Source: Hadesarchaea archaeon (GTDB lineage Archaea > Hadarchaeota > Hadarchaeia > Hadarchaeales > WYZ-LMO6). Taken from it: DNA of 43,978 nucleotides. The stretch spans positions 1 through 43,978 of the forward strand of contig JAPDJF010000026.1 in assembly GCA_029259185.1 (NCBI GenBank). The letters run 5' to 3'. Below are positions 37,507-42,877 of the stretch, piece after piece (within the stretch, counting starts at the first letter, position 1; every line of letters begins with the position of its first letter). The notes beneath the pieces were generated by a model. That model worked only from the letters and a program-made list of their open reading frames with translations, searched no databases and was not told where the DNA came from. Both the position numbers and the translations under genes were made by a program.

Positions 37507-37638
37507 CAGATCACCGCTTTCAAATCCGTTCCTCGAAATAAATGATTAGGGTTCCGTGCTGGCATCTCCTCCGCTCGCGTTCCCTCAACAAATCCATCGG
37601 GATTGGATTATTTAGTATCCGAAGTGGAAGGTAGAGAG

Positions 37639-38142
37639 ATGAAGAGACCATCGATGGACGAATACTTTCTGGAGCTCGCCAAAGTGGTCAGCCTGAGGGC
37701 CACGTGTCTCCGCAGGAGGTTCGGAGCTGTTATCGTCAAGGATGGGGTGGTGCTGAGTTCCGGGTACAACGGGGCTGCACGTAAGGTCAAAGATTGTCTC
37801 GAATTCGGTATCTGTCTCAAGGACTTGGCGGGGGCACCCCACGGCGGAGGATATGACCTCTGTCCGGCCGTCCACGCCGAGGCAAACGCCATCGTGAATG
37901 CTGCTAGGGCTGGGGTCAGCATCTTGGGGAGCACGATGTACCTCTACGGACAGGACCTGCAAGGAAATGTGGTCGAAGCCACCCCGTGCACATTCTGCCG
38001 CAGGTTGCTCATAAACTCTGGGATCGACAAAATCATCTATAAGAAGTCCGATGGCTCTGTGGGATGCTATGACATCAAAGAATGGATAAGGGACGAATCG
38101 CTAGACTACCAACGGAAGATCCAACTCCATCGAGAGAAGTAA
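37639..38142 (+). CDS. dCMP deaminase-family zinc enzyme
   Basis: Converts dCMP to dUMP, or a close relative; supplies thymidylate precursors. The zinc site is HAEANA (His and catalytic Glu) and PCTFC (two Cys), with a further C/H-rich insertion (KDCLEFGICLKD ... DLCPAVHAEAN) typical of dCMP deaminases and ComEB. Start at ATG 37639 because a TATA-like TTATTTAGTA sits about 25 bases upstream, giving 167 residues; an in-frame start at 37603 would precede this promoter. It lies next to the nrd genes, fitting a deoxynucleotide theme. Confidence 0.9.
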   Translation: MKRPSMDEYFLELAKVVSLRATCLRRRFGAVIVKDGVVLSSGYNGAARKVKDCLEFGICLKDLAGAPHGGGYDLCPAVHAEANAIVNAARAGVSILGSTMYLYGQDLQGNVVEATPCTFCRRLLINSGIDKIIYKKSDGSVGCYDIKEWIRDESLDYQRKIQLHREK

Positions 38143-38836: not shown

Positions 38837-38846
38837 CCCGAACTGT

Positions 38847-38863
38847 GTTACATAAATCGTAAC
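38847..38863. promoter_or_regulatory. Operator-like inverted repeat near the regulator gene
   Basis: GTTACATAAATCGTAAC: five-base arms GTTAC/GTAAC around a 7-base AT-rich spacer. On the minus strand it lies between a TATA-like TATAAACG (about 38864-38871) and the regulator ATG at 38836, covering the expected transcription start. It matches 38939-38955. Confidence 0.6.
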
Positions 38864-38938
38864 GTTTATACCTTACTCTCGTATTTTTTCCTCCGTCATA
38901 TTTCACCGCTATACAATTACATTTAAAACGTGTTACGC

Positions 38939-38955
38939 GTTACAAAAATGATAAC
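38939..38955. promoter_or_regulatory. Operator-like inverted repeat at the nrdG promoter
   Basis: GTTACAAAAATGATAAC: the same 5-7-5 layout as 38847-38863, with one arm changed by a base. A further GTTAC half site is at 38932-38936. The TATA-like ATTTAAAACG at 38921-38930 places transcription start at about 38948, within this site, the classic position for a repressor. Confidence 0.6.
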
Positions 38956-38972
38956 GCATGGAGGTCGTTTGA

Positions 38973-39728
38973 GTGGGGGTTGCGGTGAAGAAAGAGGTTC
39001 TAATATCTGCCCCGAGCACCAGACCCGTTTTCAAGGGGATCCAGAAACTCTCCCTCCTCGACTATCCAGAGAAGATGGCAACCATCGTCTTCGTTGGAGG
39101 GTGTAACTTCAGGTGCCCGTTCTGCTACAACGCGGAGCTTGTCTTGAACTCCCCAGAGCTACCGTCGGTTCCCGAAAGCGGGATCCTCGAGTACCTCGAA
39201 AACAGGAGGGAGTGGCTAGATGGGGTTGTGATAACGGGGGGAGAGCCGACAATGTACCCCGAACTCCCCGACTTTCTCCAGAAAGTCAAACGAATTGGGC
39301 TAGAGATCAAACTCGATACCAACGGCTCGAACCCGGGGATGCTCGGGGAGCTGATGAGGGAGGGGCTGGTCGACTACGTGGCCTTGGACGTGAAAGCACC
39401 TCTACGCGAGGAGAAGTACGGAGAGGTCGCTGGAGTCCCGAACATGGCAAGGCTCGTCGAACGAAGCGCAAAACTCCTCCTCTCCAGTCAAATCGAGTAT
39501 GAACTCAGAACCACCGTAGTCCCGACCCTCCTCGAGGAGAACGATGTGCTCGAAATAGCCGAGCGAATAAAGGGGGCCAAGCGATACTACCTACAACAGT
39601 TCAAGCGGGCGACCACCCACTTGGATGAAAGGTTCTCCAAGATCGAACCCTACCCGCTTGAATTTCTGAGAGATCTGCAGAAAAAGGTCTCAAGCTACTT
39701 CAAGATTTGCAAGGTGAGGGGTGGATGA
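38973..39728 (+). CDS. nrdG: Anaerobic ribonucleotide reductase activating protein NrdG
   Basis: Radical SAM activase that installs the glycyl radical on NrdD. The cluster motif is CNFRCPFCYN (Cys44, Cys48, Cys51), followed by GVVITGGEPTMYPEL and LDTNGSNP. It opens with FKGIQKLSLLDYPEKMATIVF, the signature N-terminus of the archaeal NrdG family. Start at GTG 38973, with GGAGG at 38960-38964. It is 251 residues, longer than the small bacterial NrdG. The stop overlaps the nrdD ATG (ATGA). A role with another glycyl-radical enzyme is possible but the adjacent partner is nrdD. Confidence 0.92.
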   Translation: MGVAVKKEVLISAPSTRPVFKGIQKLSLLDYPEKMATIVFVGGCNFRCPFCYNAELVLNSPELPSVPESGILEYLENRREWLDGVVITGGEPTMYPELPDFLQKVKRIGLEIKLDTNGSNPGMLGELMREGLVDYVALDVKAPLREEKYGEVAGVPNMARLVERSAKLLLSSQIEYELRTTVVPTLLEENDVLEIAERIKGAKRYYLQQFKRATTHLDERFSKIEPYPLEFLRDLQKKVSSYFKICKVRGG

Positions 39729-42700
39729 GCGAGAAGATAAAGAAGATCAGGAAGAGAGACGGCCGGATAGTGGACTTCGATAGGGAACGTATAACCAACG
39801 CGATATTCAGGGCAGCAGTAGCGGTCGGTGGTAAAGATAGGAGGGTGGCGGAACTCCTGACCGACGATGTGGTCAGGATCTTAGAGGAGGAATTCGTGGA
39901 CGAAATCCCAAGTGTGGAAGACATCCAAGATGTGGTGGAGCGTGTCCTCATCGAGCATGGACACGCGCGTACCGCCAAAGCCTACATCCTGTACAGGAAA
40001 CAGCACGAGGAACTCAGGAGGATTCGGTCGACGTTCATAGAGGTGGAGCGCATCGTCGATGACTACCTGAACCAAGCGGACTGGAGGGTCAGGGAGAACA
40101 GCAACGTTGGATACTCCCTCTCGGGACTCATGCTCCACATCGCAGGGTCCGTGATCGCGAACTACACGTTAGACAAGGTTTATCCCATGGAAGTGGCTGA
40201 CGCCCACAGGAACGGTGATTTCCACCTCCACGACCTCGGGATGGGTATCACTGCTTACTGCGCCGGGTGGAGTTTAGGCCAGCTCCTAGCGGAGGGGTTC
40301 AATGGGGTTCCCGGCAAGGTGTCCTCCAAACCCCCCTCACATCTCGATACCGCCCTCCTGCAAATGGCGAACTTCATAGGATGCTATGATGACCGGACGG
40401 AGATCCTGACCCGGGAAGGATGGAAGCTATTCGAAGAGCTCTCGTACGAGGATGAAATCCTCACACTCAACCCGGAAACCTATGAACTCGAGTACCAGCG
40501 TCCGACTAGAATTTTCAAATACGACTACGACGGGGAGGTGATCTCCATCAAAACGAAGTCGATCGACTTGCTCGTTACCCCGAACCACAGGTTCTTCGTC
40601 GAGCGCCCGAGCAAGGCGGGGGGAAAACTCATTTTCAGAAAAACTTTTACAAGAGCCGATAGGCTGAGAAGCGCGGACAGGGCTCCGAGGACGGGCTATT
40701 GGAACTGTAGGGATCAGGATTACTTCGTCCTGCCGACCATGGAGGAGCGCAAGGGGGAGGAGTCGAGCCGGGGGCGAGTCAGGCACTTGTCTGAGATCAA
40801 GATCCCAATGGACGACTGGCTCCGTTTCCTTGGGATATACCTAGCTGAGGGCTCGATCCACGCGGGCGGGGATGGAGAAGGGAAAGGGACGAATTATCTC
40901 ATCAGGATCACCCAGAGGGATCCAGAGAAGAGGGGAAAAATCCGGGAACTTCTCCAGAGGCTTCCTTTCAAGTACTATGAAACTTCCCGCGATTTCATAA
41001 TTTTAAGCAAACAGCTCTGGACATACCTGAAGGAACTGGGAAAGCCCCACGAGAAGTATATCCCCCAGGAGTTCAAGGAGTTGCCGCCCAAGAGGCTCTC
41101 GATCCTTCTGGAATGGATGTTAATGGGGGACGGAAGTTACTACTCGAGGGATGGCCTTCGGGAATATGTGACAACTTCCAAGCGGCTGGCGGACGACGTG
41201 CAAGAACTCTTCCTCAAGGTCGGAAAGAGTGCCTCGGTACTGAGGCAAGAAAAGAAGACGATGATCTCTCCTATGGATGTTCGCCCGCACCGCACCAAAC
41301 CGCTATACCGGGTGAGAGAACACAAGTCGAAACGCAGCGTGTTGAAGAGCCAGAAGAAGGGGGAACCCAGCCGGAAGAGAACCCACTACAAGGGGAAGGT
41401 TTACTGCGTCGAGGTTCCAAACCACGTAATTTATGTCAGACGGAACGGGAAACCAATCTTCTGCGGGAACAGCCTCCAGAACGAGTGGGCGGGTGCGCAG
41501 GCGTTCAACTCGGTGGATACCCTCCTCGCCCCGTTCGTGCGGAAGGACGGGCTGAGCTACCGGCAGGTGAAGCAGGCGATCCAGCAGTTCGTGTACAACC
41601 TCAACATCGCTTCCCGCTGGGGAGGGCAGACCCCATTCACCAACATAACCCTCGACCTCACGGTTCCCGAGGACTTGGCAAGGCAACACGTCATCATCGG
41701 CGGCAGGCTCGGGGATCGAACCTACGAGGAGTACGAGGAGGAGATGGAGCTCATAAACCGGGCTTTCATCGAAGTGATGTTCGAAGGGGATATGAAGGGA
41801 AGGCCCTTCACTTTTCCAATCCCCACCTACAGCCTGACCCGTGATTTCGAGTGGGACAACGGGGTAGCTACGCCCCTCTTTGAAATGACCGCCAAGTACG
41901 GCCTCCCGTACTTCCAGAACTTCATAAACTCGAACCTGAAGCCGAGCGATGTGCGCAGTATGTGCTGCAGGCTGAGGCTCGACCTGACGGAGCTGAGGCG
42001 CAACGTGACGGGGGGATTGTTCGGATCCGGGGACAAGACGGGATCGATAGGGGTGGTGACCATAAACATGCCGAGGCTTGGATACCTCTCCCGGGATGAG
42101 GACGAGTTCTTCGAGCGCTTGGAGCACATGATGGAACTCGCCAAGGTGGCCCTCGAACACAAGCGCGAGATGGTAACTAGGAACATGGAGAGCGGGATCC
42201 TCCCGTACACGAAGCGGTACCTAGGAACCTTCAGGAACCACTTCTCCACCATAGGCCTCGTCGGGATGCACGAGGCCTGCCTGAACCTGTTCGGGAAGGG
42301 AATAGACGAGGAGGGGGGGAAGGACTTTGCCGTCAAAGTGCTCAAGTTCATGCTCAAACGCATCGCCACCTTCCAAGAGGAAACAGGACACCTCTACAAC
42401 TTAGAGGCGACTCCAGCGGAGGGGGTAAGCTACAGACTGGCCAAGATAGACAGACAGAAATACCCGAAGATAATCACCTCAGGGGAAAGGGTTCCGTACT
42501 ACACCAACTCCACTCAGCTCCCAGCGAACTCGGGGCTTGACCTAATCGATGCTCTCAGACACCAAGAGGAACTCCAAACACTTTACACGGGTGGAACGGT
42601 CTTCCACATTTACCTAGGGGAAAGCCTGGAGGACGGTGAAAGCTGTAAGAACCTTATGAGGAAAGTGGCATCCAAAACCAGACTCCCGTATTTCACCGTA

Positions 42701-42877
42701 ACCCCCACGTACTCGATATGTAGCGAGCACGGGTTCATATCTGGGGAAAGACACTCATGTCCCTCATGCGGAAAGGAGACGGAAGTGTACTCTCGGGTGG
42801 TTGGGTACTTCAGACCCGTGAAGAACTGGAACGCCGGGAAGCAGGAGGAGTTCCGTCAGAGGGCGATGTATCATTGA
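39725..42877 (+). CDS. nrdD: Anaerobic ribonucleoside-triphosphate reductase NrdD precursor with intein
   Basis: Class III ribonucleotide reductase. An N-terminal ATP-cone allosteric domain (about residues 1-95) precedes the ten-stranded barrel. A C-terminal zinc site (CSEHGF...CPSCGKE) follows, then the glycyl radical motif RVVGYFRPVKNWNAGK. ATG 39725 is chosen because it overlaps the nrdG stop; the frame is open a little further upstream. After NFIG the enzyme is interrupted by a 363-residue intein and resumes at SLQNEWAGAQAFNS. Without it the enzyme is 687 residues, a normal archaeal length. Oxygen-sensitive enzyme: fits an anaerobe. Confidence 0.95.
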   Translation: MSEKIKKIRKRDGRIVDFDRERITNAIFRAAVAVGGKDRRVAELLTDDVVRILEEEFVDEIPSVEDIQDVVERVLIEHGHARTAKAYILYRKQHEELRRIRSTFIEVERIVDDYLNQADWRVRENSNVGYSLSGLMLHIAGSVIANYTLDKVYPMEVADAHRNGDFHLHDLGMGITAYCAGWSLGQLLAEGFNGVPGKVSSKPPSHLDTALLQMANFIGCYDDRTEILTREGWKLFEELSYEDEILTLNPETYELEYQRPTRIFKYDYDGEVISIKTKSIDLLVTPNHRFFVERPSKAGGKLIFRKTFTRADRLRSADRAPRTGYWNCRDQDYFVLPTMEERKGEESSRGRVRHLSEIKIPMDDWLRFLGIYLAEGSIHAGGDGEGKGTNYLIRITQRDPEKRGKIRELLQRLPFKYYETSRDFIILSKQLWTYLKELGKPHEKYIPQEFKELPPKRLSILLEWMLMGDGSYYSRDGLREYVTTSKRLADDVQELFLKVGKSASVLRQEKKTMISPMDVRPHRTKPLYRVREHKSKRSVLKSQKKGEPSRKRTHYKGKVYCVEVPNHVIYVRRNGKPIFCGNSLQNEWAGAQAFNSVDTLLAPFVRKDGLSYRQVKQAIQQFVYNLNIASRWGGQTPFTNITLDLTVPEDLARQHVIIGGRLGDRTYEEYEEEMELINRAFIEVMFEGDMKGRPFTFPIPTYSLTRDFEWDNGVATPLFEMTAKYGLPYFQNFINSNLKPSDVRSMCCRLRLDLTELRRNVTGGLFGSGDKTGSIGVVTINMPRLGYLSRDEDEFFERLEHMMELAKVALEHKREMVTRNMESGILPYTKRYLGTFRNHFSTIGLVGMHEACLNLFGKGIDEEGGKDFAVKVLKFMLKRIATFQEETGHLYNLEATPAEGVSYRLAKIDRQKYPKIITSGERVPYYTNSTQLPANSGLDLIDALRHQEELQTLYTGGTVFHIYLGESLEDGESCKNLMRKVASKTRLPYFTVTPTYSICSEHGFISGERHSCPSCGKETEVYSRVVGYFRPVKNWNAGKQEEFRQRAMYH
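40382..41470 (+). mobile_element. NrdD intein with LAGLIDADG endonuclease
   Basis: 363-residue in-frame intein. It begins with Cys1 in CYDDRTEILTREGWKLFEEL (block A), has block B LLVTPNHRFFV with Thr and His, block F VYCVEVPNHVIYVRRNG and block G FCGN before Ser+1. The penultimate residue is Gly, not the usual His, which some natural inteins tolerate. The endonuclease helices are FLGIYLAEGSIH (Glu as acidic residue) and LLEWMLMGDGSYYSRDG (Asp present), so the nuclease core may be intact. The insertion point, NFIG/SLQNEWAGAQAF, is a strongly conserved NrdD motif. Confidence 0.93.

Follow-up and report, generated by a model that had tools for sequence, protein, structure and literature searches.

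Do the palindromes between the gene for a putative regulator and the divergent genes for the anaerobic, class III ribonucleotide reductase (RNR) belong to a repressor devoted to that enzyme? We addressed this question in a 43,978-nt stretch of DNA from a Hadesarchaea archaeon, here called the window (contig C10 of a genome of 1,267,874 bases, ~1.27 Mb). The original prediction was that a two-domain winged-helix protein, distinct from NrdR, represses its own gene and nrdG-nrdD through two matched operators. Our analysis favours a dedicated, autoregulated local repressor of class III RNR, a reading to which we give roughly three chances in four. No archaeal repressor devoted to RNR came up in our literature searches. 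The locus offers a concrete candidate, together with its putative operator, from a lineage of mostly uncultured archaea.

A two-domain protein beside nrdG and nrdD

The regulator gene is divergent from nrdG-nrdD, and the candidate operators lie in the gap between them (Table 1). The nrdG gene has a GTG start codon, with GGAGG at 38960-38964, and nrdD is interrupted by an in-frame LAGLIDADG intein at about residues 221-580, as located by intein domain matches. The nrdD frame of the sister genome G001 has 1425 aa and several gaps relative to the family, suggesting that it probably contains more than one intein; that of the other sister genome, G002, is of ordinary length. A dCMP-deaminase-like neighbour is retained beside the regulator in G001 and G002, at the level of the same family only.

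Table 1. Positions of genes, putative operators and predicted promoter elements in the window
Feature	Position	Strand	Remarks
dCMP-deaminase-like gene	37603..38142	+	convergent with regulator; without operator of its own
two-domain regulator, 230 aa	38144..38836	-	HxlR/MarR-like winged helix and DarG/SocA-Panacea-like C-terminal domain
operator 1, GTTACATAAATCGTAAC	38847..38863	.	perfect palindrome (inverted repeat); putative
predicted regulator TATA box, TATAAACG	38863..38870	-	read from sequence
predicted nrdG-nrdD TATA box, TTTAAAAC	38922..38929	+	predicted start about 38948-38951
operator 2	38932..38955	.	half-site GTTAC (38932-38936) and GTTACAAAAATGATAAC (38939-38955); putative
nrdG-type anaerobic RNR activase (NrdG2)	38973..39728	+	TIGR02495, 218 bits vs cut-off 131
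nrdD, class III ribonucleotide reductase	39725..42877	+	NF006126, 1061 bits; N-terminal ATP-cone, 1.4e-24

The winged helix, which spans about residues 9-84, was confirmed by a Pfam match of residues 12-78 to HxlR (PF01638; 6.3e-7, 29.6 bits, above the curated cut-off of 20.8), and all nine orthologues match the same profile at E <= 0.1. In its N-terminal domain and in the palindromic operator within a divergent gap, the protein resembles HxlR/MarR-type regulators (YodB 5hs7, 1z7u), from which it differs by the extra C-terminal domain (about residues 92-230). AlphaFold modelled this domain with a pLDDT of 93 (84 for the whole regulator). Among solved structures, the DarG chain of 7yk3 comes closest to it, with a profile E-value of 3.8e-5 and a Foldseek E-value of 8.5e-4 (TM 0.60 on the query). 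The earlier label of SocA-like applies as a remote likeness only: PF13274 (SocA/Panacea) is matched by 2 of 24 aligned homologues of the C-terminal domain, at best with 5e-4, but not by the window protein itself. The domain is common in archaea without the window protein's N-terminal domain.

With the C-terminal domain of DarG and the SocA-Panacea (DUF4065) antitoxin domains (7yk3; PMC8832971), the regulator's domain appears to share the fold and a GPYS core. This likeness could point to a module of the toxin-antitoxin type, in which the protein guards against a toxin and has the nrd genes as accidental neighbours. Here, however, the domain is fused to a winged helix and sits beside RNR genes without a toxin partner: we saw neither a macrodomain nor a DarT partner, and detected no toxin-like family among the four neighbouring genes scanned. 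As the conserved partner is a metabolic operon and the operator ties the protein to nrd, we consider such a module very improbable. In a local repressor of RNR, a type of domain that is otherwise familiar from antitoxins would have a regulatory role.

The view that the protein is not NrdR held up as well. It has no cysteines, no match to NrdR or Zn-ribbon families and no ATP-cone (PF03477), which is present in NrdD instead, and NrdR was absent above cut-off from 27 genomes of the order. Redox sensing by cysteine was considered and rejected; a conserved cysteine is found in none of the nine orthologues, making a thiol switch unlikely, in contrast to YodB and HypR, which are thiol switches.

Candidate operators at the two promoters

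The two proposed sites with a 5-7-5 layout are real: computed against the full 17-bp pattern GTTACN7GTAAC, the first is perfect and the second has one mismatch, in its right arm. They were also said to cover the predicted transcription starts. This is correct for site 2, inside which the nrdG start falls (about 38948-38951, from the TATA position), but not for site 1, which has the regulator's TATA box on one side and the regulator's start (about 38841-38844, likewise from the TATA position) on the other. In G001 and G002, operator 1 is perfect and the regulator's TATA box is kept beside it. The 5-7-5 layout recurs in at least one site of all relatives, but not in site 2 of the sister genomes, whose left arm reads GTTTT (the nrdG-side element being GTTACGTGTTTTAAAAAYGATAAC). 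The additional half-site GTTAC is kept in both, and with the right arm it forms a conserved 24-bp GTTAC-N14-ATAAC. In these genomes, then, site 2 has lost its left half and the extra half-site has been retained; on the nrdG side, the actual operator may be this 24-bp element. We counted the imperfect operator 2, and the loss of its 5-7-5 form in G001 and G002, against our main reading.

We then computed how often the motif occurs in the window genome. Exact GTTACN7RTAAC, for which a genome search had been proposed, is present nowhere outside the regulator-nrdG gap in all 1,267,874 bases. If one mismatch is allowed, seven more sites appear, all inside long ORFs, and a wider regulon in this genome was therefore rejected. 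The class II RNR that is also encoded (C15) lacks a site, so that the predicted regulon is class III RNR only.

For binding, dimer formation, repression and signal, we infer the following scheme. The 230-aa protein would bind GTTACN7GTAAC, presumably as a dimer via its HxlR/MarR-like winged helix, at operator 1 between the TATA box and the start of its own gene and at operator 2 over the start of nrdG-nrdD. Given these positions, binding should block the assembly of TBP, TFB and RNA polymerase at both promoters, so that the protein would repress its own gene as well as anaerobic dNTP synthesis. The DarG/SocA-Panacea-like domain would receive the releasing signal, which could be a nucleotide, some other ligand or a partner protein. 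We regard DNA binding by the regulator as very likely and repression as likely; the positions of the sites relative to the TATA boxes fit blocked initiation, with TATA boxes and starts being predictions.

Alternatively, the divergent protein might bind the sites and activate nrdG-nrdD, or repress itself and activate nrd. The sign of control is not readable from the sequence, and some archaeal winged-helix factors both repress and activate. Archaeal activators usually bind upstream of BRE/TATA, however. Operator 2 is instead downstream of the TATA box, where it covers the predicted start, and operator 1 separates the TATA box of the regulator from the start. Activation thus appears unlikely to us, though it is the strongest of the rivals to repression.

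Co-occurrence of motif and regulator across the order

We searched 27 genomes of the order and, more widely, 394 genomes. Nine regulator orthologues, including the window protein, were found in three families and six genera, all within the order (Hadesarchaea) and all from incomplete genomes; the eight others are full-length and 50-70% identical. Beyond the order, the 394 genomes yielded matches to single domains only and no full-length regulator. A related-locus search of genome contigs returned a single relative, CSMAG_554. All nine regulators are divergent from nrdG-nrdD, in G004 from nrdD alone; nrdG is there on a separate contig (G004:C9), and the sites remain in the regulator-nrdD gap.

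Each of the nine regulator-nrd gaps contains at least one perfect GTTACN7GTAAC, with 11 such sites in total. All eight relatives have a counterpart of operator 1, which in G012 and G022 deviates by one mismatch. The 11 sites, having been selected as perfect matches, agree at all ten arm positions. Most of the 7-base spacer is free, and only its first base hardly varies (A in 10 of 11). Invariant half-sites around a mostly free spacer are as expected if the factor is dimeric. Could such palindromes arise by chance in AT-rich intergenic DNA? With two mismatches allowed, the window contains 9 sites against 7.2 expected, which is the chance level. Dinucleotide shuffles of each gap, however, gave a perfect site in at most 4 of 3000 cases, and the spacer varies from species to species around constant arms. 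The comparative data have already refuted this explanation, whose probability we take to be close to nil.

One test set in advance for the original prediction was that the motif should persist wherever the gene pair does, and the prediction passed it. All nine gaps have a perfect site, whereas the order's 14 nrdD/nrdG clusters that lack an adjacent regulator (23 loci, with flanks of about 1.5 kb, contig ends permitting) have none, even when one mismatch is tolerated. This site-free set includes, as an internal control, the second, ATP-cone-less nrdD of G004, G012, G014, G022 and G025. Hence, the predicted regulator is probably a dedicated on/off switch of the genes for oxygen-free synthesis of DNA precursors. 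Motif and regulator could both be missing at the other nrdD loci owing to descent.

The same data bear on whether another factor binds the palindromes, with the regulator a bystander, or whether the repeat is a promoter element. The sites always adjoin promoter elements and some relatives have a few perfect copies elsewhere, as either version would allow. Yet the motif tracks the regulator, and a promoter element would be expected to recur throughout the genome, whereas the window genome has the motif at this locus only. We therefore rate this explanation as improbable, a little more so than activation.

The regulator tree agrees with the taxonomic families f1 and f3. NrdD of G001 and G002 is placed apart from that of G000 and has diverged from it far more than the neighbouring regulator and NrdG have. 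This suggests, from one tree, that nrdD may have been swapped in place while the regulator and its operators were retained, an enzyme replacement under a conserved switch. Three nrdD loci without the regulator (L067, L069 and L101, in G013 and G005) are clustered with genes resembling dcd and thyX; this different set of dNTP genes has no such operator.

Likeness to NrdR and perfect sites elsewhere

Few archaea are described as having NrdR (PMC9110341). Our regulator is best read as working like NrdR without being NrdR. Like NrdR (PMC9110341, PMC12051234), it would be specific for RNR, regulate itself and act through palindromic boxes at the start site. The centres of NrdR box pairs are about three helix turns apart, with spacers of 15-16 bp (PMC12051234). 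In G012, G021 and G022 (f3), a single TATA-like element has an operator on either side, and equivalent bases of the two are 31-32 bp apart, a comparable distance; the window, by contrast, has 92 bp between its operators and G004 has 131 bp. The regulator differs from NrdR in having another fold, with neither Zn-ribbon nor ATP-cone, another box sequence and one locus only, class II nrdJ not being included. It is conceivable, though we hold it to be rather less than an even bet, that it is an independently arisen archaeal counterpart of NrdR, a two-domain repressor that combines a winged helix with a sensor domain shared with DarG/Panacea antitoxins and is devoted to one class III RNR. In some lineages it would then have converged on the three-turn arrangement of double operators, and its DarG-like domain would sense nucleotides or a signal from DNA metabolism.

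Further perfect sites occur in a few relatives, and these we also counted against a dedicated repressor. A site identical to the nrdD operator of G004 is located in the same genome just before a TATA box (L058:6563-6579, on G004:C34). The gene behind it encodes a 70-aa CxxC protein, an orphan with no relatives within the order, and is upstream of Ku and a ligase-like gene; this site is a possible second target. Three g12 genomes keep a perfect GTTACN7GTAAC (L055:7556, L056:7793 and L057:7641) upstream of a conserved non-coding stretch of about 300 bases, which had no Rfam match at E-values up to 1 and is possibly an undescribed RNA. On G012:C31, a perfect site (L054:3206-3222) is flanked by a TATA-like element on one side and, on the other, by the ATG of an ORF that is cut by the contig end and possibly encodes another winged-helix protein.
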